Of a stretch of 64,000 nt of DNA, positions 2,271 through 54,124 are shown piece after piece (positions within the stretch are counted from its first letter, which is position 1; every line of letters begins with the position of its first letter). Made by a program: the position numbers and the translations under genes. Below the pieces are notes generated by a model. It did not search any database. It saw only the letters and a list, made by a program, of their open reading frames with translations, and was not told the DNA's origin. Origin of the DNA: Sipunculus nudus (Eukaryota > Annelida > Sipuncula > Golfingiida > Sipunculidae); assembly GCA_026874595.1 (NCBI GenBank), contig CM049310.1, forward strand, positions 7,626,001 to 7,690,000. Direction: 5' to 3'.

Positions 2271-4894
2271 CGCCAGAATTCTAATAAATCTTTCATGTGT
2301 CTCTGTGTTCCATATTTTTCACCAACCCAGTACTCTAGAACCCTAGAACAAAGCTTCCCCCAATACCAATTAATGGATCTAGGGCCGGACACAGGAATGT
2401 CACGACGTTATAGAATTCTTTGAATGCTCAACATGATGTTCTTTATAACCTTCAGTCTTTAGCGGATTGTACTTTGGTGATTCATTAAACCCCTTCAGAA
2501 ACAAAATCTCGTCCATGCCCCAACCCTCCAAGAAGTGTTCCACAGAGTTTTTTGAAAACCGGTCCTGTTGGTTTTTATCACAGTCCTCATACACACAAGT
2601 AAACAAGTAAAAAAATAAAAAAGACAGGGGAGACATTATAACCTCCTTTACAGAAATAATAACACCAGGCTGCTCATTAAGTTATTTCCCTAGTTATCCA
2701 TTTTTATGGATCTGTTTTGTTTTATGAATAATTCAAACAACGGTGACCACCCCTTTGATGTTAAGTTTGCTCGCACTCTCCTTTATCCAAATCAACCTCT
2801 GGCTTCCCCTCTTAGAGCCTATATTGTCCGCCAACGCTTCCACAGTTCCCATTTTCTGTTTTTGAGCGTTCAGTTAATCCCCTCCTTCCCCCCTCTTCTT
2901 GATAGACCTTGGATTTGCTGCTGGTATGTTTGTTCGCACCCTCTAAGCCCACCATCCATTCCTTAATCCATCCACTATTTAATAATGGTTAGTAAATGAA
3001 AGTAATTTAGTTACGTAATGCTTAACGGGATATAGTCTGGTCTCTACACGCATGTATGCATCGTATCTGGAAATCTCATACAAAATGACCTTAAAGGATT
3101 GCACCCGGTGATGGATGAACGAACTTTTTTGTGAAAACAGTAACGCAAACTTGGAGGCCGTTATTGAGACATTCTCCGTTAACTAAATAAGGTGACGGAG
3201 CACTGCAGACCGTCCCGTGTTCCGTCTGTGAGGCTGATAACCCCAAGGAGACAGTAAAGATGCTCCACCGGCGCTAAATACTCCTGGCAGGTTGTTAATG
3301 GCAACCGATCGATCTGTCTCCTCTTTGTACTCTCGAGACAGAACCGTTTAATAATTTGCAGGTCAGCCGACTTTCTGCCTCGAATACAGAAACAGGCCTA
3401 GAACCCTATAATGGTCGGGCACCCAAGGGGTCACCTGGTGTATACACGTTTACTTAAGCTGACTTAAATTATACATACATACATACATACATATGAAGGT
3501 ATTCATTCTCTCTCGAACACCCGCAGACCTCCAGAGGTCTAGAGCTGCAGACAATCCCTGTCTCTCCTCTATAAAAATATAAACATTAAAAAATATTAAT
3601 ATAAGCGCGCAAAAATTGTTAGGAAATAAACACATTTAGGCAAAGGTATTTTTTTTTATTGAAACGTTTACCATGTTTAGTCAATCTAAAACAATCTAAA
3701 TTATATATTCCCTTTTTACTGCACATGTTCAACAAGATCAAATTGGGTTCTGATACCGGTTGTTGTCAAAGATTAATAATAATCGTAGTGATTTAACCAT
3801 CGATAATCGCGTTAATTCATGTAAAACCATCGGTTGGTCGTGTCGGCCCTGGGCTATCTTATCGGTTAATATATGTATTTCGGCCCCAGAAATAAACTTA
3901 TTTAAGAATTTTTATGCATGATGACTGTATCGGATCTTCCAGTGGATAAAGCCCTGAAGTAAAAGCGAAAAGAGGATAAAACAAGTGGTTATCAAGTAAA
4001 TATACATAAAAGACGAGCCTAAGGTTACCCAAACACATGTTTGATGAGAAAATGTGAGGGAGACAATCCAAATAGCCTGTAGAGAAGTCCCCTTTCGGCT
4101 ATACGTCTTGTCCTGAATCCACGAGTCAATCTCCCGTCTACGACGTAATCCTGCTTACGCTACTCTGTTGTCTCTCCAGAGAGTTTAAAGTTTTCTGTGA
4201 AAATGTCAATGTGCAGTTAACTCTCAGCATGATTCATTAGTATTGGTAATGCCAAAAATTCACTTTCTTAACATGAATTTTCTGGTTTACGTTAAATCAA
4301 CAAAAGAAACGAGACTTTCAACGTTTCACTGCAGCTGTCCTCTCTGGGCTAAAATACAAAGAAGACTAGCTATGTATCGTTAGTTGATTGGAGTGATCAA
4401 TGGGACATGCTTTGTTAGATTGATTAAAGGATGTGGAGAAGATCCATCAGCAGCAGTCATAGCTTTGACTTCACGTTGTCTGGCGGAAACTGGATCAGGA
4501 ACATCCAATTTTCATTAGGCTTAATTCTTTAAATATCAACGTCCGAGAAGCAAAAAAAAAAAAAACAAATGATTAAACAAAAGCTATTCTGTTTAACCGA
4601 TCCTTCATTAAAAGTATTTTTTTTCTGTTATTGAAATAATGGATTAATATTAGTATCATATATATATTGTGTACTTGATATTTGGATTGTAACTTGTATG
4701 CACTTGTCATTTAGCCAACCTAAGGGTACAAAATAGATTTTGCTAATAGATTTTGCTGAATTTCGAGAAACTTGGTTTCGTTTAATTATGTTCAAAGCAA
4801 CGGTAGTCTTATATTACCAGTTTTAAATATCGTTCATCAAAAATAGGTTTGTATTTGTTTAATAACACCAAAAGGGAAATACCAAACTAAAATG

Positions 4895-4939
<45 letters not shown>

Positions 4940-4965
4940 ATTATTTATTTATATATACACACATA

Positions 4966-5080
4966 GTTACGGGATGTACATAAAAGCAGACCGAACTGTC
5001 TCGCTAGTGATGCGTGAAGTTGTGCGCCGGACGTGCGCACCGACATGGGTACGAATCCCGGGATCGGCCAAGTAGTTGAT
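4966..5080 (+). mobile_element. tRNA-derived SINE-like repeat, copy 1
   Basis: Begins GTTACGGGATG and shares with 6427-6548 the blocks AGC(A/G)GACCGAACT, GCGCCGGAC and CACCGACATGGGT. A B-box-like GGTACGAATCC lies at 5048-5058, followed by a short GC-rich arm as in a tRNA 3' half. The region that should hold the A box is degenerate. It follows a (TA)n tract and directly abuts Helitron-like copy A. It is too degenerate to be a working tRNA gene. Confidence 0.6.
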
Positions 5081-6242
5081 TCGCCAAAACAAAGTTTTGC
5101 AGATACTATGTTTTTGACGGGGTTCCGCCGCCGCGTTCGTTTCCGGAATAGAACTCTGAGACCTCTGGACAGATTATTCCGAAACTTTACACCTTTATCG
5201 GGTCACATGTGAACTGCTGCCAAAATATTTTGCGTTGACCTCTGACCTTTCCTCTCTCTAGTGCGTCAATCTGTGCGTCTGTTTTGACACATTAACTCAC
5301 ATTTCTTCGGACTCGTTTGACCATTCAGGCTAAAAATTTGGCACAAATGTAGCCGCTGGATAGCTTAATAACATACATAGAAAATGGTGGCGCCACCTGC
5401 AACCATTTTTGCACAGCGTCCATCTGTTCATCTTCCTGAGGATAACATATTCATATCACGCAGTGGTTGGACTTATCTACCTGAAATTTTGCGTGTGTAT
5501 TCATCCTGGATAGCTTTCTTGATTTTATGATATTTGGCGCCTCCTACATTCACTGTCAAGCTGCAGACATCCAGGCTTATATCTCAGGACTGGTTTGACT
5601 TATTCTCCTGAAATTTTGCATGTGTATAGATCTCACATAGCGCTTTATCATATGCAATACTGGTGGCGCAACCTGTAACCATTTTGGCACACCGTCCGTC
5701 TGTTTGTCTTCCGTGGGATAAAATCACTCATATCTCGGCAGAGGTTTGACTTATCTGCCAAAAATTTTGCATGCATATACATCTTGGATAGCTTTTTAGA
5801 TTTTGAGGCAGGTGGCGCTACCTACATTTATGTTTACGTTGCAGACACCCATGCTTATATCTTAGGACTGGTTTTACATATCCCTCTAAAATTTTGTATG
5901 TGTATAGATCACACATGGCTCTTTATCATACACAAAATTGGTGGCGCCACCTGCCAAAAAAATCCAGAAAGCTCTCCAAGTTGTATAAACATGATAATTT
6001 TAGGCAGATAAGTCAAACCACAGCTGAGATTCGAGTGATTTTTATCCCACGGTAGACAAACAGACGGATGCTGTACAAAAATGGTTGCAGGTTGCATACA
6101 CATTTCGGCTGCAGACATCCATGCTAATACGCTACACACCTCGCTCTATTTCCCCTTGCCACTCAATCCATGCCTCACTTCACCCGTCCAACTCTGATTT
6201 CGGCGGATACATATAGTCAGTTGTCGACAACCCGTATTCCAG
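5081..6242 (+). mobile_element. Helitron-like tandem-repeat element, copy A
   Basis: Shortest and most diverged of three copies (others 7579-9015 and 17535-18989). The 5' end TCGCCAAAAC...GTTTTGC is followed by GATACTATG and a CCGCCGCCGCG block. The core is a degenerate array of roughly 130-149 bp units, each opening with GGTGGCGCCACC or a variant (near 5386, 5533, 5663, 5812, 5940). The 3' domain (CGGCGGATAC, a palindrome GTTGTCGACAAC, CCCGTATTCCAG) matches the other copies. Here the canonical CTAG end reads CCAG, and the left flank is T rather than A. No protein is encoded, so it is non-autonomous. It is probably an older copy. Confidence 0.75.
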
Positions 6243-6426
6243 TTTACCCTGAGCAAAAATGGTTTCGTAAATATGGGGGCTCGTCCAAATTTACGCTCAC
6301 ATTTGGGGCCCGGTGAATAGTAGTTTGAAGTAATTGAGTAATAACCACCTCATACTCCACCAAATGTGTTACTCCTGGCATAAATAATCTTGTTATAACA
6401 GCAAAAAGCTCTTAAGAGAGGTGTGT

Positions 6427-6548
6427 GTTACGGGGTGCACACGAAAGCGGACCGAACTTTCTTGATAGTGAAGCTTGTAGTGAAGTGGTTGGAACGCCGG
6501 ACTTGTGCGCCACCGACATGGGTTCGGATCCCTGGATCAGTCCAGAAA
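6427..6548 (+). mobile_element. tRNA-derived SINE-like repeat, copy 2
   Basis: The better-preserved copy. An A-box-like TAGTGAAGTGG lies at 6478-6488 and a B-box-like GGTTCGGATCC at 6521-6531. Their 43-bp spacing is that of a tRNA gene, so an internal RNA polymerase III promoter is plausible. The acceptor arms do not pair, so this is a SINE head and not a tRNA. Upstream sequence matches copy 1 (GACCGAACT). I see no clear poly-A or tail repeat. Confidence 0.65.
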
Positions 6549-6779
6549 CAAAATCCAATCAACGTACTTACTGCGTGACTTAATTATATTGCCTGCGGCG
6601 AAAAGATGACCTCCTGCCCTGTATTGGATGACCTTCACGTTCTGTCTTTATTGAATAAATCGGACAATACTTGTTATGAGCGTGTCTGTCCACAACCTCC
6701 AGGCTTGGTCGATAAGGACAAGGCCACGTGATCCGATCCCGACAGACAGTGGCATGGCTACCCATTCCATATAATGTAC

Positions 6780-6826
6780 ACACACGCACACATACACACA
6801 TATATATATATGTGTATATATATAAT

Positions 6827-6888
<62 letters not shown>
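6780..6888. repeat. (CA)n/(TA)n microsatellite
   Basis: A short CA run passes into a nearly continuous TA run to 6888. It directly follows (in the minus-strand sense) the terminal sequence of the Penelope-like relic, a typical arrangement for such tails. Tyr-Ile open frames across it are artefacts. Confidence 0.95.
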
Positions 6889-6889
<1 letters not shown>

Positions 6890-6985
6890 CTCTGAAGAAA
6901 AACAACACTGTTAATTCACAACAGTCTGTTTCACGGGATGCGACCCGATCATCAGGTGAATGTAGTTAGAATGAAGCTAACGGCG
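6889..6985 (-). mobile_element. Penelope-like 3' tail with hammerhead-like core
   Basis: Read on the minus strand, this contains CTGATGA (6949-6955), a CGGG/CCCG stem with a six-base loop, and GAAAC (6928-6932). This is the order of conserved parts in hammerhead ribozymes, which are known in Penelope-like retroelements. A closely matching copy in the opposite orientation lies at 9206-9312. A U-U apposition at the base of stem II and the lack of a clear stem I argue against activity. It lies downstream of the GIY-YIG relic on the same strand, so it is probably that element's 3' tail. Confidence 0.6.
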
Positions 6986-7371
6986 TGGTTTGAAGATTAT
7001 GCTTTATGCGATTCGAGGGGGGGGGGGCATGTGAAAGACTGACACTGATCCTATTGTCCTCGGGGGCACAATAGGATTGGCCGGGGTACACGTGCGATAC
7101 TGGAACATACCAAGGCAAAGAGGTTTGTGCTATAAAAATACACAATATATTAGGCAAATATACAATATAAAAGGCAAATATACTATACTATACTCATACC
7201 AAGTGCACTCCACTCGATAAACTCACCATGGGGTAGTGGTGACGCCATTTCACTCAACACTGCAAAGCAGTGAGAGAGCAACCACCTGAACAGGCAAGTC
7301 TGCCCAGCGGATCCTCGTGGTGGGGAGGGGGTTGATAAGATGAGCGGGCACGTTGGATATTAGTACGAATG
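6986..7371 (-). mobile_element. Probable 3' untranslated part of Penelope-like relic
   Basis: Non-coding DNA between the stop codon of the GIY-YIG relic (7372-7374) and the hammerhead-like tail. It holds an 11-base G tract (7017-7027) and a few short AT repeats. Membership in the element is inferred only from its position between two recognisable parts on one strand. Confidence 0.4.
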
Positions 7372-7459
7372 CTAGGATTTAAAACATTTCAGAGTGAATT
7401 TGTTTTGATGGCGGCACTTGGAGAGAATTTCAGCTCTTGAAATCAACAATGATAAGGGT

Positions 7460-7473
7460 GGGGGGGGGGGGGG
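7460..7473. repeat. Poly-G tract inside former coding sequence
   Basis: Fourteen consecutive G on the plus strand, inside the Penelope-like relic between its CxxC motif and its SKCRH motif. The flanking motifs are in different frames, so the tract probably grew after the gene died. Confidence 0.9.
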
Positions 7474-7578
7474 CATTGCTTTGAGTAGCTTTTCAGACAA
7501 ACAGAGATCACACTTTCTAGTCCCACAGAAGTAAGGTGCTGCCTTGGCAGAGATTTCTCAAGAGAGCTTGTAATTGTA

Positions 7579-9015
7579 TCTGCCAAAACAGAGTTTTGCG
7601 GATACTATGTTTTCAGCTGCACGCCGCCGCCGCCGCCGCCGCGTAGGTGTCCGGAGAACTCCTCCGTAACCGCTGGGCGGAATTTTACGAAACCCGGGAT
7701 TATATTCGGGTCACATGTGAACTGCTGCGCCCCGATTTTGTTTTGACCTCTGACCTTTCCTCTGCGCTCTGCGTCCGTTTGAGCGTCGGGAACCGTTTGA
7801 CGGATCAGGAAAATTTTTTTTGCACAAATGTAGCCCTTGGAGAGCTTTATAACATACACAAAAAATGGTGGCGCCAATTGCAACCATGTTTGCACAGTGT
7901 CCATCTGTTCGTCTGCCTTGGGTTAAAATCACTTATATCTCTGCAGTAACTTGACTAATTCACCTGAAATTTGGCATGCGTATACATCCTGGATAGCTTT
8001 TCTGAGTTTGTGACAGGTGGCGCCACCTACATTCACGTTTACGCTGCAGACATCCAAGCTCATATCTCGGGAACCGTTTGACCGATCAGGAAAATTTTTT
8101 GCACAAATGTAGCCCTTGGAGAGCTTTATAACATACACAAAAAATGGTGGCGCCACCTGCAACCATGTTTGCACAGTGTCCATCTGTTTGTCTGCCTTGG
8201 GTTAAAATCACTCATATCTCTGCAGTGACTTGACTAATTCACCTGAAATTCGGCATGCGTATGCATCCTGGATAGCTTTTCTGATTTTATGACAGGTGGC
8301 GCCACCTACATTCACGTTTACGCTGCAGACATCCAAGCTCATATCTCGGGAACCGTTTGACTTATTCTCCTGAAATTTTTCTTGTGTATAAATCTCACAT
8401 AGCTCTTTATCATACGCAAAACTGGTGGCGCCACCTGCAGCCATTTTTGCACAGCTCCTGTCTGTTTGTCTGCCATGGGATAAAATCACTCATATCTCGG
8501 CAGTGGTTTGACATATCTGGCTAAAATTTTGCAGGTTTATACATCCCCGACAGCTCTCTTGATTTCATGACAGGTGGCGCCACCTGCATTCTAGTTTATG
8601 CAGCAGACATCCAAGCTCATATCTTGGGAACCGTTTGACCGATTGGGCCAAAGTTTTGCATGTGTATAGTTCTCACATAGCTCTTTATCATACGCAAAAC
8701 TGGTGGCGTCACCTGCAACCATTTTTGCTCAGCGTCCATCTGATTGTCTGCCACGGGCTAAAATCACTCATATACATGTAGTGGTTTGACTTATCTGCCT
8801 TAAATTTTGCATATGTATACAACTTGGACGGCTTTCTGGATTTTGTGGTAGGGGGGGGGGGGCAACCTTCATACACAATTTGGCTGCAGACATCCATGCT
8901 AATATGCAACACTTCACTCTATTTCCCCTTGCCACTTAATCCATGCCTCACTTCACCCGTTCCACTCTGATTTAGGCGGATACACGTAGTCGCTTGTCGC
9001 CTACCCGTATTCTAG
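7579..9015 (+). mobile_element. Helitron-like tandem-repeat element, copy B
   Basis: A 1437-bp non-autonomous element. The 5' terminus TCTGCCAAAAC...GTTTTGCGGATACTATG is followed by a (GCC)n-rich block. The core has seven GGTGGCGCC starts (7867, 8016, 8146, 8295, 8424, 8573, 8702) alternating 149 and 129-130 bp, then a 12-base G tract at 8851-8862. The 3' domain contains an imperfect hairpin (GTAGTCG/CGCCTAC, 8986-9004) 7 bp upstream of CTAG. The flanks are A on the left and T on the right with no target duplication. Joining them restores the reading frame of the host Penelope-like relic. TC start, hairpin, CTAG end and an A-T target are Helitron hallmarks. The satellite-like core resembles the mollusc 'pearl'-type elements. 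Confidence 0.88.
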
Positions 9016-9152
9016 TTGTTATTGTTGTCTTTTAGTGACCAGATGTGTTTAGACAGTTCAGTTTTTAGCGTGGGATCTGTTACGAAAGGATTATTTGTGG
9101 TTATTGTATCTGGTCTTGAAATCACCATCAGTACACCCCATGTAGTGTTACT

Positions 9153-9213
9153 CGTCATTGTCTGTTCTAACTGTTCATATTTTGAATACTCATCCGTCAT
9201 TGTCTGTTCTAAC
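9153..9213 (+). repeat. Paired 19-bp direct repeats at the truncated end of the Penelope relic
   Basis: CGTCATTGTCTGTTCTAAC occurs at 9153-9171 and 9195-9213, separated by 23 bp. The pair sits exactly where the minus-strand relic loses homology and the opposite-strand tail begins. It could be a target-site or template-jump duplication. Confidence 0.8.
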
Positions 9214-9312
9214 CACATTCACCTGATGATCGGGTCGCATCCCGTGAAACAGACTGTTGTGAATTTACAGTGTTGTATTTCTTCAGAGTTATACCGCTCT
9301 GGCCTAGTCTGT
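9206..9312 (+). mobile_element. Inverted second Penelope-like tail
   Basis: This plus-strand segment closely matches the reverse complement of 6889-6985, over about 85 bp by eye. It holds the same CTGATGA (9223-9229), CGGG/CCCG stem (9231-9234, 9241-9244) and GAAAC (9246-9250). In this copy GTCTGT (9202-9207) can pair with ACAGAC (9249-9254) as a helix III, but no helix I is visible. Inverted partial copies at one end are a known feature of Penelope-like insertions. Confidence 0.65.
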
Positions 9313-9358
9313 AGGCCATAAAGCACTTCACAACGTAGGGTAAGTCTACCTTCTATAT

Positions 9359-9359
<1 letters not shown>

Positions 9360-9409
<50 letters not shown>
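9360..9409. repeat. (CA)n/(TA)n microsatellite
   Basis: A CA run followed by a TA run. It separates the inverted Penelope-like tail (9206-9312) from another tail-like sequence on the opposite strand (9410-9470), so both sides look like element ends abutting a TA tract. Confidence 0.95.
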
Positions 9410-9413
<4 letters not shown>

Positions 9414-9470
9414 TACATACATACTTTTTGGTACATGTTTTCTTATGCTTTTCATCAGGTGTATCGTTAT
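9410..9470 (-). mobile_element. Degenerate Penelope-type tail
   Basis: On the minus strand this reads CACCTGATGA, a short linker, GAAAAC, then ATGTACCAAAAAGTATGTATG running into the TA tract. The order resembles the other two tails, but the stem II sequence is nearly lost. It is probably the end of a different, older insertion. Confidence 0.4.
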
Positions 9471-10204
9471 ATCCCGCACTGTCGACCTTAGTTAAATTAT
9501 CTCTAAAATTACAAAATATTTTGACTCTATATAAAAGACGCAAAAAGGGGTAGTACACGTAGATGTTAGACGCGTCAAGGAAATACGTTTTACCTTACAT
9601 TCTGTAGGATTACCTGCTGTTTAGTATATATTCATATTTTAAATACTCATCCAGAATAACAGATTTTCACCCTGGTATGTTGCCATAAGTTTCCCATTAA
9701 AGATGTATACGGCAATATGCTTATACCTTTATTTGCATGCAATGCCTTCTTATGAGTCCAAAGTCACTCGTTTCTTGCCGATCAGAAAAAAAAAAAAGAT
9801 TCCCAATCGTTTATCTGGAGAAAAAACTTTCACCAAAATTGCCATCCGACGTGGCCTTGCAAAAAATTACCTGGCGGTATATATATCGATATATAATTAT
9901 ACTTTAAAAAGTTCAGCAGACTGAGTACGCCTACCTTCATTCTGGTAATGTATATCAATAGAATCCACATAACTGAACTTGTTATCATTAATTAGGAAAG
10001 GTTGGACTAAAATGTCAGAGGTCACCAGTTACAAAGGCTGTAGTAGGATCTGGGATAAGGGTAGTGCTAGCACACTCACAACTGATAACCACTATCACAG
10101 CCGTAATATATTAATGGAACAGGATAATAACATTAGTGTTCTCTTGACGGGGCTTTGAGTTGATGGCTGTAATCTGAATGTTTTTAATTTGCCGAAGTCA
10201 ATTG
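9471..10204. other. Unassigned DNA between element ends
   Basis: No gene or clear repeat. A short block near 9672-9690 (CACCCTGGTATGTTGCCAT) resembles one near 1050-1069, which may mark an old dispersed repeat. The longest open frame is 73 codons and matches nothing known. Confidence 0.45.
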
Positions 10205-10206
10205 TA

Positions 10207-10849
10207 TGGAGCCCGGGAGACGACATAAAATATTTATTAATTCGCGCGCACGATTTACAAGTTGTGAAAAATATATTTCCAAGGTGAGAAAAAAATGGCG
10301 ATTGATAACTGTAACTGTAGTTACTTTGTGAGGCAAAATAAGTGTTAAACATTTCAGCCTAATAACTTTGTCTACAATTCTGTTCCTATTATGATCCATC
10401 GTGATAATGTAGTTTCTTTTTTTTTTTACCAAAGTAAGCCTAAGAATTTTTCCACAATTCACGACACTGAGTATATGGGTCTGTGACTTATATATTTATA
10501 TATTATATATTTATATAGCTTATCGCCCTTTCAATTTTCAAGCACTACAGAGTTCTGAATTTTCCAATGTAGAAAGTCACAGATCTGTCGGAAATCGTTG
10601 AGCACCATTTTGACAACCGGGTGTGCACGCAGAATCTGCCAGCCTGTGCCTAGACTGAGTCGATGTGTGCTTGCTTCTCATTGACTAGTAATTCGTGCGC
10701 ACGAGTTATTAATTCGTGCGCACGAATTAGTAGCCAATGAACATTGAGCCAGCAAGCTGTTCTCATTGGCCACTAATCGTGCGCACGGATTAGTAACTCG
10801 TGCGCACGATTTAATAAATGTTTTTCACCATGTCGTCTCCCGGGCTCCG
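10207..10849. mobile_element. MITE with long TIRs and palindromic core, TA target
   Basis: A 643-bp element. The left end TGGAGCCCGGGAGACGACAT and the right end (reverse complement CGGAGCCCGGGAGACGACAT) are inverted repeats with one mismatch in 20 bp, and weaker pairing continues inward to about 45 bp. Both ends are flanked by TA (10205-10206, 10850-10851), the target duplication of Tc1/mariner-type transposons. The 3' half holds four copies of TCGTGCGCACGA or a one-base variant (10693, 10714, 10777, 10798), each self-complementary, arranged as an inner inverted repeat (10683-10738 against 10768-10813). No transposase frame is present, so it would be mobilised in trans. Confidence 0.82.
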
Positions 10850-11822
10850 TACACATTTGCAATTATCTGAAGGCAGACATTTTTAAAATTTATTTATTAG
10901 ATCTCTTTTAACAAATGTTAACGGACTTTTTGTCAAAATCCTATGTTTTGCTTCCTTATAATTCTAGGGAACACAACATATCTGAAAAACATTTTGTCCT
11001 TCCTCGTTATCAGCATATATAGTGCCATGGTCCATGGCCCTCATATTTCATTCGTAGTAACGTTTTATCAGAACAAAGAGTAATTGTGTCTTTCTACAGA
11101 ACTGTTTTAACTTAAAGTCTTTTGTGTTAGTGCTGTCTGCTCTGTCGGCTGCGTTATAGATTAGCTTAAGCCTAGCCAGGGCTGGGGTAATTATACAGTC
11201 GATGGAGACGCCAGAGAACTTGTACAGCACGTGGTGCTGTCGCTCGGCCGTCCTCATCGAACAGCCCTCCCGTGGCGTCATCAATCTTTTCCGCCATTTG
11301 TCCTCCATCACCTCAGTGAACTCACCCACGTGATGTGCGTGTCTCTTAACTTACGACGTCACCTTTTTTTATGGCTCTCGCTCATGACGATTGTCCATTA
11401 AGCGGTCCGTAAGCAGTGACTCTAATGTGTACCTAGCTGGCCTCTGATCACATTCTGTTACAAACTGTAATATTTCTGTTGAACTGCAGCAGCCTTACTG
11501 TTTTTTACCGCTAAGTCCTATACTTTCTGTTGCCTCGGAGAGTTAAGTTGCTGTTAACCTTTTCCCTGTATTATTTGACTTTACCTTATCTGCTCGGTTA
11601 TTAGAACTTGGTATACACGTTTTTCAGGAAACTTAGACATAGCTGTTGTAATCATATAAAACTGTCACCACGGTTTTTTTCCGGTATTTTTCTTATGTTA
11701 GAATACATTTTCTCTTGTAAAATGTAATTAATTAATTATTTGTCTCAAAATATAATCATATCAGATAATCTAACAAATGTTTAAGTGTAATTGCTGAAAC
11801 TATGCGACCTGTGACCTGGTGA
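10850..11822. other. Spacer between two MITEs
   Basis: No recognisable gene. A 93-codon minus-strand open frame (11048-11329) has no motif I know. The region 11140-11340 is less AT-rich than its surroundings but shows no promoter-like element. Confidence 0.4.
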
Positions 11823-11824
11823 TA

Positions 11825-12395
11825 GCCCGATTTAATCGGACTCAATATTATTAGGCCCTGCCATATATATATATATTGAGTCCAATAGCTATACAGTAAG
11901 AGTGTTTCTACAATATAAGCCTCATACTACACACAACCCAATGCCCTTGTAACCAGTGTCAACAGGTGTTTATTATCCCGTGCCTGCGGTCACTCTTTAG
12001 AGCCAGGTCCGTTGAAACAAAATAAAACAAAATTCTAGCAGTCAATCACTCGAGTCAGCGAGGCTATCAGTGGGGTCATCAAGTGCGCCTGTTCGACTGT
12101 TCTTCTCTGTCCCTACTAAACTCGCTGACATGCCTCTGGTAAAAAGGTCAGTCAATGTTTAAAAATGATGATTCAAGTTTAATTTTAGTTGCTATCGAAA
12201 CCATGAAACATATACTTATTGGTGCTAAAATGGAGTAATCCTGTGTCTTGTTGTTAGGCAGTAAACAGGCAGTAAAAGAATATGCAACGGATCCGTTGCA
12301 TCTTCCGTGGTTTATATTGTAGAAACTCTCACTGTATGGCTATCGGACTCAATATATGGCAGGGCCTAAAAATATTGAGTCCGATTAAATCGGGC
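11825..12395. mobile_element. MITE with ~100-bp TIRs, TA target
   Basis: A 571-bp element. The left arm (11825-11920) begins GCCCGATTTAATCGGACTC. The right arm (12310-12395) is its reverse complement with scattered substitutions, and the left arm carries a longer (TA)n insert. TA flanks both ends (11823-11824, 12396-12397), suggesting a Tc1/mariner-type origin. Shared blocks continue inward through TAGGCCCTGCCATATA, ATTGAGTCC, TATACAGT and TTTCTACAATATAA. Near the right arm lies a 20-bp perfect palindrome at 12282-12301. No transposase is encoded. Confidence 0.85.
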
Positions 12396-12674
12396 TAACC
12401 GGGTGACAGCTGGGTTTCAGTTTGTTCGCCAAATGTAGAGTCAATAGACTGGATGAAATAATAGGCAAACGTTTGAAGTGAGATCCAGGAAATCTTATTT
12501 TAGTCTTCGATTTGTTGTAGGTACCTTCATAAAGCTAAGTGTCTTCTTGTGTATGTACGAGGTGGGGTTGCGATGACAGTACGCATCTGGACACAAATGT
12601 TTCCGTAATCATGTTTGTCAGTGCACTTTTCTGGACATTAACATCTTCAAAATTGCACCAGATCGTTTCTTTAT

Positions 12675-12700
12675 CCCCCCCCCCCCCCCCCCCCCCCCCC
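12675..12700. repeat. 26-base poly-C tract
   Basis: The longest of about 18 poly-G/poly-C tracts of at least 11 bases in the window. It makes an artefactual proline run in one open frame. Confidence 0.95.
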
Positions 12701-15700
12701 GTATATCACTACATGCTGCAGTTGGCAATTGGCAAAAACGTGTCCGCAGCCGTCCGCCAGACCGCACACCGCGCCACACAAAAGGACGCCGTATGTTTTT
12801 GTCACTTTTATTAACTTTTTGGCCATGTCTGCGTAAGCATCCGGAACCCGACTTCCTGAACCATCACTTATTCATGAAACCTTCCGAAAGTCGTGAAGTA
12901 TAAATTTAATCACTTACAACAAAAATAAGTCATTATGTTTCCGTATAGCCATGTAGAGATCTGATACATTTTTCTCATTGTTTAATATTGAACAAAATTA
13001 TGAACATTGCATAATTATAATGAAAAATATTTATCCATTGTCGGAACAGACTACAGATATTGAAGTCCTTTGTTCAAGTGTTCTTCGGCATGAAGCATAT
13101 TCTAAATACTTCCGGGTAAATATAACAAATTTCAAAAGTATCACAAATTCCCAAATGGCGTTTTGACCACTTTCCCATTTACACTACTAGTTTGGCAGAC
13201 CAACCCTATTGAGAGCAAAACCCAAAGACTGTGGCGCGGATGCTTCCTTACAGCTTGACACTACAACACCCCATTCCTCCGTGTGTGATTTCAGTTGTTA
13301 ATCTTCAAGCGAACATTTGAATACAAGGGTCCCAAGATGCGATGAGTATGCAATATCCCCGTGGTTTTATTTGTAATAACGTTCTGTCAAGGCCAGAGAT
13401 CCCTGTGTATATGGGGCTGAATGAGAGAATAAAACCAACGCATGATTCTTTGTCAGTCGGTGAAGATGTTTCTCTTACGTATCTGGAACAGCTATGACAA
13501 TAAATACGGTTATTGAATTACATATTGTGAAAGAATCGTTCTTCACCAATACTTCTGGGTCCTAATTCATTGGTGAAGTCACAAGAGTGCTGATAAAAAG
13601 AAGGGAAGGCGTGACCACCTAATCTCCGCCATGGGCGGTTGTACAATGGCTGCAATCCCTCTGGGTATAGTTGAAATATTTAAGCGCTATTCAATTTAAT
13701 CCGAATCCCCTGGGCAGTAATTATAAAATTTGAATTTCATGAGCAGCTATCTGTTATTTGAAACCACAGCCTTCAATAACATAAAAATAGAAACATGGTA
13801 CTGAAAATGTGACAACTAAGATTTTTTCATATGACAATGAGAAAATTATTGCTTCAATCTGTCAGGAAGTAGGATCACGTTTAAAGACTGCTATTCAAAG
13901 TGCCATAGTTCCTGGAAACGCAGAAAAAACAACGCCAGTTGTGATTGTTTTGAAACATGAATTTGATCAGTAAATGGAATGCGAATTATCTTCAGAATCG
14001 GTTAATAAAGTTATGCGCCATAAATTGAAAAAAAATACAGAAAATTGTATTTGTAAAGACAATGAATATTGAGTCATCCGATCTGGACATAGGTATTTCC
14101 CAACACAGTTGACGTCGTCAGGCCATTAATGGAAAGGTAAATGATTATTTACTCTAAGAGTAAATTCCGGATACACAAAAGATACTTGAGGAATCCGTAC
14201 GGTAGTTCTCAAGTGTCTTTACGGCAGACAATAAAGCGACGTCAATTATTTAGGAAGCTGCATGCTCGGCCATTTGACGTAAGTGTATTCTTAAATAAAC
14301 CAATATTTGTTACCGGAAAGTCAGTTAGCAGAATCGTAAGTGGTGTCTCTGCTATAAATATTGTTCTTCCGGCACGGAGTATCATTACGTTTACTCGTTC
14401 AGTCAACTTAACACAGGGTTAAAGCGGCTGAGCTCTGGATAAATACGATTCTGCGGTTATTAAGGCCTAAGGGAGCGTGCGCCCGATTGCCTTTAATCAT
14501 GGAGAAAGCGATTGGTCGTGGCTAATACCCAAGATTACCAGTAGACTGACCAGTGGTCAGTTGGGACTGACCGTGCTACTGTCCGGAACGGTTTGGGACA
14601 GAGGGACCTCTGTTCTGGTAGTATAGGAGGTTTGGTTGATTTGCCAGCCAACGTACCGTGTCATTCTCCGGATTCCTACAGGACACAAGACATTAAAAGT
14701 CTCTCAAATATTGATTGCGGGGCCATTAAATGATTGTTCCAGGAGGATACGCAGTGCACCGTTTTCATGATAACAAGCCACTGAAACCATCAATAAAACT
14801 ACAAGGAATTATATGAACCGATCTATACTACAGGCATATCTGTCCGTCATGTGCCTCTCCGAGCGTGCTAGTACTACATAACGGAAAACGGATACACTCT
14901 CATTCAAATTTTTTGGCATACTTTAAACAGAAAATTTTCAATTTTAAGATTGAATTTTAAGATTGTATTTTGTTAAATTTTACATATATGTTTCTGGACG
15001 ATTGGTTTGCAGTAATCAGATCTGCTGGATCGTTCAGTTTCAGCAGTCAATCGGTAATGCTAAAGTTTGCAATATGAACCCAACAACTCATTTTTAATCT
15101 GGATAAGTCACTGGGGTCCGACCGATTTCCATGCGAATTGGTTCCAAAAGTTTTGTGAATGGCCTTATGGACGCGACAAAAGGTATTTTACAAAAAAAAG
15201 CTCAATCGCAACCGCTGCGCTCTTTGTGTCTGTGTGTTCAATTTGAACGTATGAAAAGGGATGAAACCTTTAAATCCGAACAATGTACATGATATGACCG
15301 TTTAAGGAGTACTGTCCTCTGTCGATTATTATTAAACTAATGCAAAGGAACTCAATTTGTATTTCCAGTATGCTTTGCCGCATTTATCTTGTTATTGGGC
15401 AAATGAGTATAGGATTGCCCTGACGTAATTATATGACATGCACTGAGAGAGATATTTTAGGTGTTTTTACACGAATATAATTTTACAAAAATATAAGTAA
15501 AACCGTCTTCTTCAGTATACATGTACCTGAAATATATCTGAACGTATCAAAGAGGAGCTGCTGTTACTCGTGGACAGGTTGATGGCTTCACAGTAGGAGC
15601 TCTGATTGCCTTCGTACAAGGCTGATAATCTCGCACCGGCGGACCTGGCTCCATAGTCAGACATGATATGCTTTTAAGCTAGTATGGTCGCGGGTTATTG

Positions 15701-17160
15701 TCAGTAAATCAAATACAATTAGGATTAAGACCACGATAAATCTCTCTAGACCTGATTTTCAGTGAAACTACCATACTTCTAAATTAACTTTTCTTATTTG
15801 CTCCAATGGTATAACCTTAAAATTTCTTTGGAAAAAATCATGGAATAATTTTAACTTGCATGCCTTTGTTTATAAGAAGAACTGTGAATGAATATAATCG
15901 TTAGCTTAAAGAGACGTCCTCCTATTATCACAGGAGTTACTATGTTAGCTGGTGAGTTCTTCTAAAGTGGCGTTAGAGCATTTTCTGATTGCGTTTCACA
16001 AAACGTGGATATTTAGCACACATTTATTTTGACAAACCTATTTCGCTGTTCAGTTATACAGGGTTTAAATTACCTTGTACATTTTCATTATCATAATATT
16101 ATTCATATGACCGATTTGGAAGTTAGTGGTAAGGGAATAATAATTGTTGTAATATTTTCCTATGTTATTAATAAAATCCAGAATCCAGAATTTATATGAA
16201 TCTTGTAGACCTCCCCAAGACATCCGCCATCCGGAACTTCCGGTTCCGCCGATGATAGATTTAGCCAGGCATCAGCGGTCATGTGAATAATGTGTATAGT
16301 TCAGGTGATAATACATTTACACTTGTATGCATACATCTGCTTATCCACTGACGACCTCCATAAAATATTGACCCGCCAGTATAGATACCCTGATTTTGGA
16401 ATGAGACATCATGAGTTTAGATATTTCGGACACGCATGTTAATCTGTACGTGGAATCCGCCCCCGCGTACGTCTATACATTATTCTCATTATCTCATTGA
16501 CGTCCTTTTCTGAAAACGAGTGATCCGCCCCCGCATGTGTACCGCACCGATGGCCTTGATTCTGAATTCCAAGGTCATGCTGGCGGTATCCCTAGTGAAA
16601 CCATGGCTGGAAATAATCGTATTGCTGTATTGAATGGAAACTGACTACACTCAGTGTCAGAGGATTCTTCTGAGAGGTTATCACGTTCTCAGTTGTATTG
16701 TTACGTAACAGTCACATGAAATATCGATGCGCTTCACAATGTGGCCACCACTCTCTGGCTGTATTCAGGTTAATGGGATACTGCTAGAGGAGCATGGGAC
16801 AGTGTTTGCAAAGGCTGGCCTTATAAGAGAAAGCCTCTACGTGAGCTTTCATTCTATCCTTTCCTCGCGTGAGTGGCCCCGACCAATGTTTGAGAATTTC
16901 GAGCATAATCAGCGGAAACTATTAAAGTGCATCTGTGTGTATGTCTTTATATGTTTAAGAACATCAAACGCTTCCTAAAACCCAAAGTGTAGTATCCACA
17001 ACGTATAGTAATGTGGACATAAGGTTCAAGCAGTAAGGACTGAGAGGCCTCATGCTCCGCTGAGGTAAAGACCTGGGCCGGGGGACAGTTGCCCCCAGTC
17101 TGTATTACAAAGTATTTTAAAACATTACATGTCCAGAAGTTAAACAAAATGTACAAATAA
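12701..17160. other. Unique intergenic DNA
   Basis: No gene recognised and no copies of the dispersed families. The longest open frame (14141-14422, 93 codons) is basic but resembles nothing I know. A block at 14470-14770 is less AT-rich and contains homeodomain/TALE-like words (ATTGATTG, TTAAATGATTG) and a 15-bp palindrome (14546-14560). It is a weak candidate for a regulatory element. Confidence 0.5.
13541..13578. other. Perfect 10-bp hairpin
   Basis: CTTCACCAAT (13541-13550) and ATTGGTGAAG (13569-13578) are exact inverted repeats around an 18-base loop. There is no T-run or gene next to it, so no function is assigned. Confidence 0.7.
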
Positions 17161-19350
17161 TTATTAGCTCAGCTGACTATAAGTCATGGTCCATTGTCCG
17201 TCGTCCGTCCGTCTGTCTGTCTGTCTCTCTGTCCGTCTGTCCGTCCGTCCGTCCGTAAGACTGGCACGTTTCAACACCATTGGACCTACGAATCTGAAAT
17301 TCGGCATACAGTTAGATGTCCCCAAAATCTCCTACCATGCCGAAAATTTGGTCAATAGGACTTCGTTCCTTCGAGATATTAAGGAAAACCCTCATTTTTT
17401 TATTAGAAATCTATTTTTACACTTCAGGACTGCCTAATATCAAAACAACTCATCTGGTTTTCTTCATATATACCATAAATATTCCTCTATATAGTTCCTA
17501 TGTACATGCCAGAAATTAAGTCAGTATTATTTAATTTGACACTATGTTTTCAGCTGCACGCCGCCGCCGATGCCGCCGCGTAGGGGTCCGGAGAACTCCT
17601 CCGTAACCGCTGGGCGGAATTTTACGAAACCCGGGACTATGTTCGGGTCACATGTGAACTGCTGCGCTCCGATTTTGTTTTGACCTCTGACCTTTCCTCT
17701 GCGCTCTGCGTCCGTTTGTGCGTCTGTTTCCACACATAAACCCACATATCTCGGGAACCGTTTGACCGATCAGGAAAATTTTTTGGCACTAATGTAGCCC
17801 TTTAAGAGCTTTATAACATACACAAAAAATGGTGGCGCCACCTGCAACCATGTTTGCACAGTGTCCATCTGTTCGTCTGCCTTGGGTTAAAATCACTCAT
17901 ATCTCTGCAGTGACTTGACTAATTCGCCTGAAATTCGGCATGCGTAAACATCCTGGATAGCTTTTCTGATTTTATGACAGGTGGCGCCACCTACATTCAC
18001 GTTTACGCTGCAGACATCCAAGCTCATATCTTGGGAACCGTTTGACCGATCAGGAAAATTTTTTTACACAAATGTAGCCCTTGGAGAGCTTTATAACATA
18101 CACAAAAATGGTGGCGCCACCTGCAACCATGTTTGCACAGTGTCCATCTGTTCGTCTGCCTTGGGTTAAAATCACTCATATCTCTGCAGTGACTTGACTA
18201 ATTCACCTGAAATTCGGCATGCGTATACATCCTGGATAGCTTTTCTGATTTTATGACAGGTGGCGCCACCTACGTTCACGTTTACGCTGCAGACATCCAA
18301 GCTCATATCTCGGGAACCGTTTGACCGATTGGGCCAAAATTTTGCATGTGTATAGATCTCACATAGCTCTTATTCATACGCAAAACCTGACCCTGGTGGC
18401 CTGGTGGCGCCATCTGCAGCCATTTTTGCACAGCTCCTGTCTGTTTGTCTGCCACGGGATAAAATCACTCATATCTCCGCAGTGGTTTGACATAACTGCC
18501 TAAAATTTTGCAGGTTTATACTTCCCCGACAGCTTTTTGATTTTATGACAGGTGGCGCCACCTGCATTCTAGTTTATGCAGCAGACATCCAAGCTCATAT
18601 CTTGGGAACCGTTTGACCGATTGGGCAAAAGTTTTGCATGTGTATAGTTCTCACATAGCTCTTTATCATACGCAAAACTGGTGGCGTCACCTGCAACCAT
18701 TTTTGCTCAGCGTCCATCTGTTTGTCTGCCACGGGCTAAAATCACTCATATACATGTAGTGGTTTGACTTATCTGCCTTAAAATTTGCATATTTATACAA
18801 CTTGGACGGCTTTCTGGATTTTGTGGTGGGGGGGGGGGGGGCAACCTACAAACACAATTTGGCTGCAGACATCCAGGCTAATATGCAACACTCTATTTTC
18901 CCTTGCCACTCAATCCATGCCTCACTTCACCCGTTCCACTCTGATTTAGGCGGATACACGTAGTCGCTTGTCGACTACCCGTATTCTAGTTTAAAAAAGT
19001 TATGGGCCCAAACATAATGGACTTTGTAAAAAAATCAGGAAAGATATTTGGTCACTTAAGACCAAAAGTGTTAAAGGTAGGGACTTTTTTTCAGTAACAC
19101 AACTTTACGTAATCAAAATTTAATTGTATACCAAAAATTAGATCAAAATCTGTTAATTTTTTTTTAATATTGGCAAAAATATAAAATTGGTGCCTTAAAT
19201 TTTGCCCAACTTTGGCCACGGCACGTTTTTTTTCCCTGTAAGTACTGTGGATTTAATTTTCACAGCATGTACACATAAGGATTTACTCTGTTAAAATCTG
19301 AAATTTGAAAATAAAAGCTGCAAAGCTAGGCTAGTTATTGAATTTTTTGG
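17161..19350 (+). mobile_element. E2 (AGCTCAGCTGA family) element, unit 1, interrupted
   Basis: 5' end TTAGCTCAGCTGACTATAAGTCAT (AGCTCAGCTGAC at 17166-17177), followed by a (GTCC/GTCT)n tract and a long AT-rich non-coding body. The body matches the copies at 30672, 47199 and 52301 in order: GACCTACGAAT, AGTTAGATGTCCCCAAAATCTCC, GACTTCGTTCCTTCGAGATATTAAGG, CTGCCTAATATCAAAAC, then GTTATGGGCCCAAACATAAT after the interruption. Helitron-like copy C sits inside at 17535-18989. The 3' hairpin end is missing here. Homology fades near 19350 and a second partial unit starts near 19445. Confidence 0.8.
17535..18989 (+). mobile_element. Helitron-like tandem-repeat element, copy C
   Basis: A 1455-bp copy nested in an E2 element. 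Seven GGTGGCGCC starts (17831, 17980, 18110, 18259, 18403, 18551, 18680) repeat the 149/129 alternation, with a small local duplication before the fifth. A 14-base G tract lies at 18828-18841. The 3' hairpin is perfect (GTAGTCG, loop CTTGT, CGACTAC, 18960-18978) and is followed by CCGTATT and CTAG. The right flank is T. Against the uninterrupted E2 copy near 31020, the flanks rejoin with no duplication if the left boundary is the A at 17534. The first ~27 bp of copies A and B (GCCAAAAC...) are missing, so this copy starts differently or is 5'-shortened. Confidence 0.87.
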
Positions 19351-19444
19351 AGGCTCTTGTTGTATTCCCTTACATTGTCAAGCAATCCACTTTGATGACT
19401 GTAGGTTATTCAGTGCACATCTCTATGCTCCCCAGGCTGTTGGC
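19351..19444. other. Junction between two E2 units
   Basis: About 95 bp with no clear match to either neighbouring E2 unit. It may be filler DNA from the rearrangement that placed a 5'-truncated unit behind the first. Confidence 0.4.
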
Positions 19445-21746
19445 ATAATGTTAGATGTCCCCAAAATCTCCTACCATACCGAAAATTGGGTCATTAGGAC
19501 TTCGTTCCTTCGAGATATTAAGGAAAAACCTCCGTTTTCCATATAAAAAAGCCATTGTTACCCTTCAAGGCTGCCTAATATCAAAACCACTGATCTGTTT
19601 TTGATCATATTTAGTATTCACATTCTTTCATACATTTTCTATGAACATACCAAAAATTAGGTCAGTATTGGGTATTATTTTAAAGTTATGGGCCAAAATA
19701 TAATGCAATTTTAAAAAAATCAGGAAATATATTTACTCACCTAACATAGAATTGCTGAACCTAGAGACTTTTTTCAGGAATATAACTTTATTTAATCAAG
19801 ATTCAATTGTTTACCCAAAAATAGATCTGAATTTTGCAAATTTTTCAAGTTATTAGCATAAATAAAAAATCAATACCTTAAATTTCGTCCAACTTTGGCA
19901 ATGGCACGTTTTTTCCCTGTTAGCACTGTTGATTTAATTTTCACAGCATATATACATAAGGATTTAATCTTTTAAATCTGAAATTTCAAAGAAATTGATT
20001 GGACAGAATAGCTTTTATTCTTGTTTTCATACACCATGTCAAGTGTTGTTTACATCTAGCCCACCTAGTAGTACAGCCTTCACTTGCATTATGTTACCCA
20101 CCCCAGGCAGCTTGCCTTTGCTCAGCTTGGCCACTACCAGCAGGCTTCCCCTTAGCCCTGCACTCCCCCCCCCCCCCCCGGATGGTGCATAAACTAGATG
20201 AATGTTATTATTTTATGTATTTGATTCATTCTTATTCTAGGCTATGCTACATTTTAGATTTTGTATTGTACCACGAGGGTTACAATGATTAAAGTGTACA
20301 TTTAATTGTGTCCACAAAGTGGTGTATTGCTGTGAAAGTGTGGATGTTCATCAGATACGTAATTCCTTACTTCAGAAGAGTAAAAACTTCACCAAGTGTG
20401 AAATTGACTATTGATTCCAGTAATAAATTAAAACTGGGAAAGTAATTAGCACAATGATATTGTTTGTCCCTCATTCAACCAACAGTGTGTATACTTTATT
20501 TGAAAAGATGTTTTATTTTATCAAATTTACTGAATCTTTTATTTTTATTTTGGTGAATAAAATTAAGCATGTACTGAAAACTCCAATGTGCAAAACTTTT
20601 TAATAGTGATTCAAGGAATATTCTTGTAGTTGCCATGTTGTGGCATTATTTTCTTTTAAATTCAGTTTAAACATTTATGATTGAAAAAAATAATAAAATA
20701 TATGTGTATGCATAATATGACCCAATATGAGCTACACTCTGGATATATGATGATTGCAACTTTTGCAACTATTCTATTATTTTAACTTATAGTTTCAATT
20801 TTATTACTCAGTATATATAATGATTGCAACTTTTGCAATTATTATAATATTTTAACTTATATTTTCAGTTTTTTTAATTAAAAATTTATAAAACCTGTAA
20901 ATAAAAAAATGATTCAGATAAAAACTTCTTAATAGAATAAATGGATATGCTAAAAAATAGGCTTATATATAAACATAAATGCATTATTCCCTTGAAAGTG
21001 AAATAAAAGTATTAGTCCATTCTGTCCACTTGCCTGTCCATCTGTAAATTTTCATATGCATCACAGTATCTCAAAACTTTTACTGTTTTTCTTCATGACA
21101 GTCTTGTCAGAGTATTAGTTTGCAATCATATATTTAGAACTTTACTATAACCAAGTAGGAGGGCCCCTTTCCTCTTAGCTTTTCATATTCTTATATAAAT
21201 GAAAAACATTACAATAGAATATTTCTACATCCACCTTCGTGCTGCCCTCACTTTTCCCTTCTCCGAACCCCATTGTGTAATATGTAGACATAGTGGGCAT
21301 CACAATAATGTACCTTGTCAAGACTAAAGAGATATTGTGTCATACATTCACAAATTCATAAATCACTTCATCAGCATAGTTAATCATAACATCATATCTG
21401 TCAAATTGAAAGCTTGCAGACTACCATACACTTTAGATCCTTCAACAAATAGCCTTATCATCATTCTACTACTGCTTATTACTGCTGTCATTGCATTCAT
21501 ATTTGCTCAAATATATCACAATTTTCAACCCCTCCTAAATAAATAAAAAATAAACCACTATATTTAATTCTATTTATCCATCAGTCAGGTAATTTCATTT
21601 ACTCACATATTACATTACATTCCTTTATAATAGCCCAACATGTCCATGATATTCATAAGCTTTATCGACTAGATATAGTATCACAGTGAAGAAACATTTA
21701 TAGTCCAATCACGTTCAGCTGAGCGCCATGACCCATGGGTCCCTTG
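19445..21746 (+). mobile_element. E2 element, unit 2 with intact 3' end
   Basis: Starts inside the family consensus (TTAGATGTCCCCAAAATCTCC) and lacks the AGCTCAGCTGA 5' end. It runs through a body closely matching 52301-54124 and includes a C tract (20165-20179). The 3' end holds TTCAGCTGAGCGCC followed by a 12-bp perfect palindrome GACCCATGGGTC and CCTTG ending at 21746. It has two features absent from the 52301 copy: a local tandem duplication at about 20746-20876, and about 490 bp more sequence just before the 3' end (after 21224). Open frames across the body also occur in other copies and reflect repeat DNA, not a gene. Confidence 0.8.
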
Positions 21747-52300: not shown

Positions 52301-54124
52301 TTTTTAGCTCAGCTGACTATAAGTCATCTGAGCTATAGTCGTGGTCCTTTGTCCGTCGTCCGTCCGTCCGTCCGTCCGTTAACAGGGCACGTTTTAACAC
52401 GGTTGGACCTACGAATCCAAAATTTTGTATACCATAAGATGTCCCCAAAATCTTCTACCATACCGAAAATTGGATCATTAGGACTTCGTTCCTTCGAGAT
52501 ATTAAGGAAAAACCTCCGTTTTCCATAAAAAAGCCATTGTTACACTTCAAGGCTGCCTAATATCAAAACATATTTAGTATTCATATTTTTCCATACATTT
52601 TCTATGAACATTCCAAAAATTAGGTCAGTATTAGGTATTATTTTGAAGTTATGGGCCCAAATATAATACAATTTAAAAAAAAATCAGGAAATATATTTAC
52701 TCACCTAACATGAGAATCGCTGAAGCTGGAGACTTTTTTTTCAGGAATATAACTTTATTTAATCAAGATTCAATTGTTTACCAAAAATTAGATCTGAATT
52801 TTGCAAATTTTTTAAGTTATTAGCATAAATAAAAAATCAATTGCTTAAATTTAGTCAAACTTTGGCAATGGCACATTTTTTCCCTGTAAGCACTGTTGAT
52901 TTAATTTTCACAGTATATATACATAAGGATTTTAAAATCTGAAATTTCAAAGGAATTGATTGAAAAGAGTAGTTTTTATTCAAGTTTTCATACACCATGT
53001 CAAGTGTTGTTTACAGCTAGCCCACCTAGTAGTACAGCCTTCACATGCATTATGTAACCCACCCCAGGCAGCTTGCCTTGGCTCAGCTTGGCCACTACAA
53101 GCAGGCTTCCCTTCTGCCCTACCCTCCCCCCCCCCCCACGATGGTGCATTAACTAGATGAATGTTATAATTTTCTGTATTTTATTTTATTCTTGGCTATG
53201 CTACATTTTAGACATTGTATTGTACCACCAGGGTTACAATGATTAAAGTGCACATTTAATTGTGTCCCCCAAGTAGTGTATTGCTATAAAACTGTGGATG
53301 TTCATCAGATAAGTAATTCCTTACTTCAGAAGAGTAAAAACTTGGTGTGAAATTGACTATTAATTCCAGTAATAAATTATAGCTGATGTTGTTTGTCCCT
53401 CACTCAACCAACAGTGTGTATACTTTATTTGGAAAGATTTTTTTATTTTATCACATTTACTGAATCTTTCATTTTATTTCGGTGAATAAAATTAAGCATG
53501 TACTGAAAACTCCAATGTGCAAAACTTTTTAATAGTGATTCAAGGAATAATCTTGTAGATGCCATGTTGTGGCATTATTTTCTTTGAAATTCAGTTTAAA
53601 CATTTGTGATTTAAAAATAATAAAATATATGTGTATGCATAATATGACCCAATATGAGCTACGCTCTGGATATATAATGATAATGTTAATATTTTAACTT
53701 ATATTTTCAGTTTTTTTATTACAAATTTATAAAACTTGTAAATAAAAAAATGAATCAGATAAAAACTATTAACGGAAAAAGTGAATATACTAAGCTTATA
53801 TATAAACTTAAATGCATTATTCCCTTGAAAGTGAAATAAAAGTATTAGTCCATTCTGTTCACTTGCCTGTCCATCTGTAAATTTTTCATATGCATCACAG
53901 TATCTCAAAACTTTTACTTTTTTTTCTTCATGACATTCTTGTCAGAGTATTAGTTTGCAATCATATATTTAGAACTTTACTATAACCAAGTGGGAGGGCC
54001 CCTTTCCTCTTAGCTTCTCATATGCTTATTTAAATGAAAAACATTACAATAGAATATTTTGCATGTTTTGCATTTGCAAAAAAATTTCAAACTTAAGCTG
54101 AGCGCCGTGACCCATGGGTCCTTT
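52301..54124 (+). mobile_element. E2 element, copy with both ends and internal deletion
   Basis: Starts TTTTTAGCTCAGCTGACTATAAG with a GTCCGTCGTCCGTCC run. The body is close to 19445-21224, by eye the best-conserved pair in the window, and includes the same C tract position (53126-53137). After 54059, where that copy carries about 490 bp more, this one jumps almost directly to AAGCTGAGCGCC, palindrome GACCCATGGGTC and CCTTT at 54124 (terminal G replaced). The intact palindrome and close match suggest a fairly recent insertion. No coding capacity. Confidence 0.8.

Follow-up and report, generated by a model that had tools for sequence, protein, structure and literature searches.

A probable non-autonomous Helentron-type element interrupting a Penelope-like relic in Sipunculus nudus

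At positions 7579-9015 of the window (the whole stretch of Sipunculus nudus DNA analysed here, 64,000 nucleotides of contig CM049310.1, to which all positions refer) lies an element, copy B, that we read, with a probability of roughly 0.85, as a non-coding rolling-circle element of the HINE type (Helitron2/Helentron), inserted in the 3' coding part of a Penelope-like element that is now a relic. That the element is real is borne out by the three copies in the window, by the 3' stop that they have in common and by the interruption of Penelope coding sequence by B. The earlier note had proposed a Helitron-like element, and of this proposal the rolling-circle type is well supported, by the 3' end shared by 3/3 copies, the hairpins, the absence of terminal inverted repeats of the cut-and-paste kind and the empty state of the site of copy C; what did not stand is the assignment of canonical Helitron ends. 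Judging from its sequence, the B family appears to be a new one within a known kind, the non-autonomous Helentron/Helitron2 type. It mixes features of Helitrons (TC/CTAG termini, A/T target) with those of Helentrons (5' hairpin, asymmetric repeats, satellite-like array). The copies and the parts of B are as follows, a slash within a sequence marking the element boundary here and below.

5080-6242, plus strand: copy A, a member of the B family, with 5' end A/TTCGCC and 3' end CCAG/TT
7579-9015, plus strand: copy B, a non-autonomous Helitron2/Helentron-like (HINE-type) element, from its sequence, blastn within the window and comparison of ends
17538-18989, plus strand: copy C, a member of the B family, without the first 22 nt of B and otherwise 92% identical to it, with 3' end CTAG/TTT
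7579-7602, plus strand: 5'-terminal hairpin of B, TCTG(C)CAAAAC-AGA-GTTTTGCGGA, with the 5' asymmetric inverted repeat occupying its first 16 nt (7579-7594)
7623-7643, plus strand: GCC microsatellite, left module of B, from its sequence
7786-8844, plus strand: central satellite-like array of B, period 278 bp, 3.8 copies (TRF)
8964-8980, minus strand: 3' asymmetric inverted repeat of B, 35 bp from the 3' end
8986-9004, plus strand: imperfect 3' palindrome of B, separated from CTAG by 7 nt, its stem of 7 bp having a single mismatch in B and none in C
9012-9015, plus strand: 3'-terminal CTAG of B, then TT, with the matching end in A (CCAG) and C (CTAG)

Using blastn within the window, we found two relatives of B, both on the same strand: copy A, 74 to 87% identical to B across the longer aligned pieces, and copy C, 92.4% identical across 1460 columns. 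Copy B starts with TCTGCCAAAACAGAG (first letters TCTGCC at 7579) and ends with CGTATTCTAG (CTAG closing at 9015). The right ends coincide in all three copies (CCAG/TTT in A, CTAG/TTG in B and CTAG/TTT in C), each time with TT directly 3' of the element, and the left end is common to A (A/TTCGCC) and B (A/TCTGCC), C starting without the first 22 nt of B. Both copies with a 5' terminus have an A before and a T after the element, and C is compatible with this (AA/TTT). The TC start, the CTAG end and the A/T flanks that the earlier note had claimed for B are thus all found in the sequence.

The first 24 nt of B form a hairpin (TCTG, one bulge, CAAAAC-AGA-GTTTTG, CGGA), and the DNA fold of 7579-7604 reached -4.1 kcal/mol (z -2.44), which was equalled by 7 of 200 shuffles and by 50 of 3000 random 26-mers from the window. 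The 5' end of A also folds (z -2.48); the start of C, which lacks that end, does not (z +0.50). In addition, the first 16 nt of B match the reverse complement of 8964-8980, with scores of 10 in B and 9 in A. When random pairs from the window were matched for position, these scores were reached by 24 (B) and 118 (A) out of 20000; with positions free, they were reached by 292 and 643 out of 5000, and in letter shuffles by 26 and 119 out of 2000. The match is weak with positions free or in shuffles and is therefore informative mainly by its position. No such match was found in C, without its 5' end (1083 of 2000 shuffles were as good).

At the other end, a hairpin had been claimed 7 bp before CTAG, and an imperfect palindrome of 19 nt is indeed present there, its 7-bp stem being perfect in C; as a folded structure it fares less well, since the minimum-energy fold of the 3' end of B uses another pairing and the fold of the last 53 nt is unremarkable (z -1.32 in B, -1.96 in C and +0.77 in A). 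In A, the palindrome of B and C is not kept in this form, and a different short palindrome, GTTGTCGACAAC, stands at that place.

Inverted repeats near the ends of a short element could also point to a MITE-like derivative of a cut-and-paste transposon, and the Pearl elements of bivalves were first called MITEs (PMC7492417, in the excerpt consulted). The repeats of B are asymmetric, however, one starting at position 1 and the other lying 35 bp inside, and its extreme ends are unmatched, TCTGCC and CTAG not being inverted copies of each other; moreover, no constant target duplication was found between A and B. We rejected a cut-and-paste origin on these grounds and hold it to be highly improbable.

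Between its termini B carries a GCC repeat, shared with C and shorter in A, and a tandem array whose period is 278-279 bp in all three copies, with 3.8 units in B, 3.6 in C and 2.1 in A (TRF). The 278-bp unit itself consists of two related halves, spaced 127/151 bp. A piece of the repeat unit is found inverted in copy A, at 5959-6095, adjoining the right module. Taken together, the 5' hairpin, the asymmetric inverted repeat, the microsatellite and the tandem array argue for a Helitron2/Helentron derivative rather than a canonical Helitron.

The likenesses to published families given here and below refer to excerpts of the papers cited. In Helitron2, the inverted repeat lies 0-2 bp from the 5' end, within a 5' hairpin, and its 3' partner lies upstream of a second hairpin, as in B, and 5'-truncated copies like C are described as well, whereas Helitron1 is presented in the same excerpt as having no 5' hairpin (PMC3627910; PMC5148889 is a second source for the terminal anatomy of both groups). 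The 3' partner is found ~20-30 bp from the end in that group, compared to 35 bp in B, and B lacks the RepHel. The closest likeness in layout is to Cg_HINE of Crassostrea gigas (PMC7492417), where the 5' subTIR with a complementary IR, the microsatellite of the left module, the satellite-like central array (the latter two described as additions in oyster HINEs), the right module with a subTIR and then a palindrome, and the T-rich target all have their counterparts in B. Unlike Cg_HINE, B has its own sequence, a 278-bp unit and a GCC rather than a GTCC-type microsatellite; it also has a CTAG end and an A before its 5' end, the excerpted comparison with Cg_HINE covering the layout without the end letters of the latter. 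The DINE-1/HINE elements of Drosophila and a mite (PMC4067079) share with B the subterminal repeats, the 3' stem-loop, optional tandem repeats and a T-rich target, no duplication being reported in the excerpt, although in the mite the distances of the subTIR from the 5' and 3' ends are 2-4 nt and 38-60 bp (0 and 35 in B) and the elements are flanked by T runs. The Phytophthora proto-Helentron described in the same paper (5' TT, 3' CTAG, A/T target) is nearer to B at its ends than DINE-1/HINE are.

These end letters also bear on the reading of B as a canonical Helitron (Helitron1) with its insertion point precisely between A and T. The canonical termini, 5' TC and 3' CTRR, are present in B; C has CTAG without a 5' end, and A has TT and CCAG instead. 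The A/T flanks at both B and A suit this reading, as does Helraiser/Helibat, which has TC...CTAG ends, an A/T target and a palindrome 11 nt from its 3' end, corresponding to 7 nt plus CTAG in B (PMC4778049). Helraiser/Helibat is autonomous, however, and a 5' hairpin with an asymmetric repeat is not among its features as described in the excerpt. Oyster Helitrons (PMC7992393) are likewise similar in their TC start, CTAG end, 3' palindrome and A/T preference, and 257 of 751 have a subTIR, a 5' IR being present in a third of these; the authors consider them possible intermediates, so that the combination seen in the B family is partly known already. Only 1 is reported to have a microsatellite there, and B has one. 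Since the 5' hairpin and the asymmetric repeat are Helitron2 traits, and since copy A departs from the canonical letters at both ends, we consider a canonical Helitron unlikely and retain the Helitron2/Helentron-type reading.

Copy C offers the better empty-site test, as it lies in a repeat family, here called D, of which copies without the insert occur in the window.

17163-17537, plus strand: left part of the host of copy C, repeat family D, with AGCTCAGCTGAC at its start and a GTCC microsatellite, from sequence comparison
18990-19380, plus strand: right part of the host of copy C, with five insert-free paralogues within the window

Five stretches of family D within the window lack C and align across the insertion point. 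The closest, at ~30.7-31.3k, is 88% identical over the joined 282 nt, followed by those at ~19.4-20.0k (76%), ~47.2-47.8k (75% over 193 columns), ~59.9-60.3k (74% over 198 columns; it spans the point in MAFFT, with the shortest right side, 47 nt) and ~52.3-53.0k (71%). The closest paralogue reads ATATAATTTAAAAAAGTT, where the site of C reads TTTAATTT, the boundary, GACACTATG...CTAG, the boundary and TTTAAAAAAGTT. On this alignment, the paralogues fix the 3' end of C at CTAG. The missing 22 nt of its 5' end coincide with the insertion point, and C was therefore probably truncated on insertion. TTT flanks C on both sides and occurs once in the closest paralogue, which can be read in two ways: either as a 3-bp duplication, or with the left TTT derived from the element, as B has TTTTG there, leaving a clean AA/TTT site.

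We also observed that copy C and its host form a nested pair (17163-19380), one rolling-circle-type element within another, as family D is itself a second HINE-like family. Its 5' ends lie at 17163, 30674, 47200, 52303, 58875 and 59435; the fullest start, at 52303, reads TTTAGCTCAGCTGACTATAAGTCATCTGAGCTATAGTC, the others being variant and those at 58875 and 59435 weak matches. Several of the starts are followed by a GTCC-type microsatellite, similar to the GTCY ones of oyster HINEs.

The host of B is of a different nature, and its parts, with the bases directly flanking the insert, are listed here.

9021-9200, minus strand: Penelope relic upstream of the insert, CTDGDFKTRYNNHK, a stop and SFRNRSHAK (frame -1), then TELSKHIWSLKDNN (frame -2), from tblastn
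7378-7578, minus strand: Penelope relic downstream of the insert, YNYKLS, a stop and EISAKAAPYFCGTRKCDLC...SKCRHQNKF (frame -1 of the joined site), from tblastn
7574-7578, plus strand: left arm (TTGTA) of the imperfect 5-bp repeat that flanks B, from its sequence
9016-9020, plus strand: right flank TTGTT, the other arm, 4/5 identical, from its sequence and a chance control

The relic was compared with one homologue, L001 (JAAEPJ010000379.1), which has an RT-like ORF and a 170-aa C-terminal ORF and which we take to be a Penelope from its RT and GIY-YIG motifs; it was retrieved from genome_contigs with an alignment query, a single-sequence Penelope query having given none there. The C-terminus of L001 matched the joined flanks with a tblastn E of 3e-20, three short sequences having been searched, and the homology lies to either side of the insert, on the minus strand. 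The matches run, in order, through YMGCTDGDFKTRYNNHK, a stop and SFRNRSHAK in frame -1, TELSKHIWSLKDNN in frame -2 and, past the junction, YNYKLS, a stop and EISAKAAPYFCGTRKCDLC and then SKCRHQNKF, again in frame -1. By this protein comparison, B lies within, and interrupts, the 3' coding sequence of a Penelope-like element, now a relic.

According to the earlier note, excision of 7579-9015 restores an uninterrupted host frame, and the joined minus strand is in fact open, for ~45 codons beyond the junction. This is not the Penelope frame, which is -2 before and -1 after the junction according to tblastn with L001; the open frame past the junction reads NTITSSLEKSLPRQ, and its sole match to L001 is out of order and at chance level (15.8 bits, E 1.4). 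The conclusion that the restored frame confirms both boundaries was therefore wrong, as the Penelope homology switches frame at the junction. Upstream of the junction the relic is broken by a frameshift and a stop, and a further stop comes soon after the junction, so that in such a host the openness of a frame proves little; on these comparisons, frame continuity cannot place the ends of B to one base. The trap is a general one, in that an open frame through a joined pseudogene is no proof of a boundary, and here the homologue shows it to be the wrong frame.

From the ELKD/SLKD motif to the W position there are 8 residues (24 nt) in L001 and 29 nt at the joined site, and the surplus of 5 nt equals the length of the flank repeat TTGTA/TTGTT. 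To our knowledge, an 8-residue spacer is general among Penelope proteins. With a spacer of 29 rather than 24 nt and flanks alike at 4/5, the claim that B inserted with no duplicated bases is not established. As the surplus is just as long as the flank repeat, the frame is compatible with a duplication and gives no confirmation of the boundaries.

Three readings of the site were weighed. The first is a 5-bp duplication, TTGTW, at B, one base of which changed later, together with a 3-bp duplication of TTT at C, where the insert has the triplet at either side and the closest paralogue has it a single time. The exact 5-nt surplus and the 4/5 flank match speak for it, and duplications of ~7-19 bp are described at 5'-truncated Helitron2 copies of Chlamydomonas (PMC3627910). 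In a chance control, however, flanks alike at 4/5 or better were counted at 1850 of the 63980 cuts in the window, at 176 of its 6343 A/T cuts and at 6 of 100 cuts nearby. Moreover, GTTGA/TTTAC, which flank copy A, match at only 2/5 (counted by eye); the TTT at C is possibly element-derived; and the host relic has another frameshift. We regard this reading as quite unlikely, and the wider proposal that short target duplications accompany insertions of the B family (5 bp in the case of B, 3 bp in that of C, which is 5'-truncated) as very doubtful; if true, it would mean that the textbook rule of no duplication fails in a family with intact CTAG ends.

In the second reading, a variant of the HINE interpretation, the insertion took place between T and T, so that the element spans 7580-9015, T7579 derives from the host and the host spacer is two residues longer than in L001. 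Published HINEs favour a TT target (PMC4067079, PMC7492417), which agrees with the TT after the 3' end of every copy, and a boundary shift of one base alters the frame relation across the junction. The 10-residue spacer that it requires is absent from the sole homologue L001, and T7579 is itself a paired base of the 5' hairpin and a part of the inverted-repeat match; we thus judge this reading improbable. The third, a clean insertion between A and T, leaves the 5-nt surplus of the joined Penelope site unexplained when taken alone, and we prefer it combined with an unrelated indel in the relic, because of the pairing of T7579 and because copy A shows no duplication. Judged by the ends of the family, 7579/9015 is accordingly proposed as the best reading of the boundary, which may be off by one base (T7579) or, given a possible short duplication, by a few.

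By analogy with published families, from which the enzyme, the strand transfer and the circle are borrowed, a RepHel-type protein supplied by an autonomous relative elsewhere would most likely nick the 5' TC end of the element, peel off one strand and halt at the 3' hairpin and CTAG end, with the 5' hairpin and the partner inverted repeat near the 3' end perhaps helping to mark the end of replication. A single-stranded or circular copy could then be joined between A and T in T-rich DNA, and the central 278-bp array would be passenger satellite-like DNA carried within the element.

The longest closed stop-to-stop ORF in the window has 148 aa among the ORFs listed, and none of five closed window ORFs of at least 120 aa matched Pfam above the cut-off. 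Rfam gave nothing at the gathering score in 4000-20000 of the window, and the DNA patterns of the element had 0 matches in viral_contigs. For the host, the Penelope pieces had no match in Pfam and L001 none above the cut-offs, the best matches in PDB had E 0.6 or worse, no match to the Penelope query was confirmed in viral_contigs, and tblastn gave no match at 1e-5 in plasmids and phages; a text search of the literature on the Penelope peptide motifs returned a single unrelated paper. No second Penelope copy was found within the window, where protein matches elsewhere were at chance level only and DNA matches were limited to a terminal inverted pair and one match of 22 nt. For the flanks of copy A, too, the window yielded no paralogue free of the insert.

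The inverted pair, 6885-6971 and 9207-9293 (87 nt, 97% complementary), bounds the Penelope relic and was rejected as a part of the insert, as it lies outside B on both sides. It contains a CTGATGA...GAAAC core, presumably the hammerhead of Penelope terminal repeats. The minus-strand piece 6900-6955 folds with z -2.17 and the plus-strand piece 9225-9275, cut slightly shorter, with z 0.18. The record of L001 is titled as a contig of a bacterial MAG, yet it holds Penelope-like RT and C-terminal endonuclease ORFs, and it is probably eukaryotic contamination of a bacterial bin.

Two further features were observed in the window. A related pair at 4966-5072 and 6427-6545, 77% identical and containing GGTACGAATCC and GGTTCGGATCC, is perhaps, we assume, a tRNA-derived SINE. 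At 236-264, a perfect hairpin (TGGCACC-TGC-GGTGCCA) is followed by 8 nt, CTAG and then TT, which by its sequence makes it a possible 3' end of another Helitron-like element.
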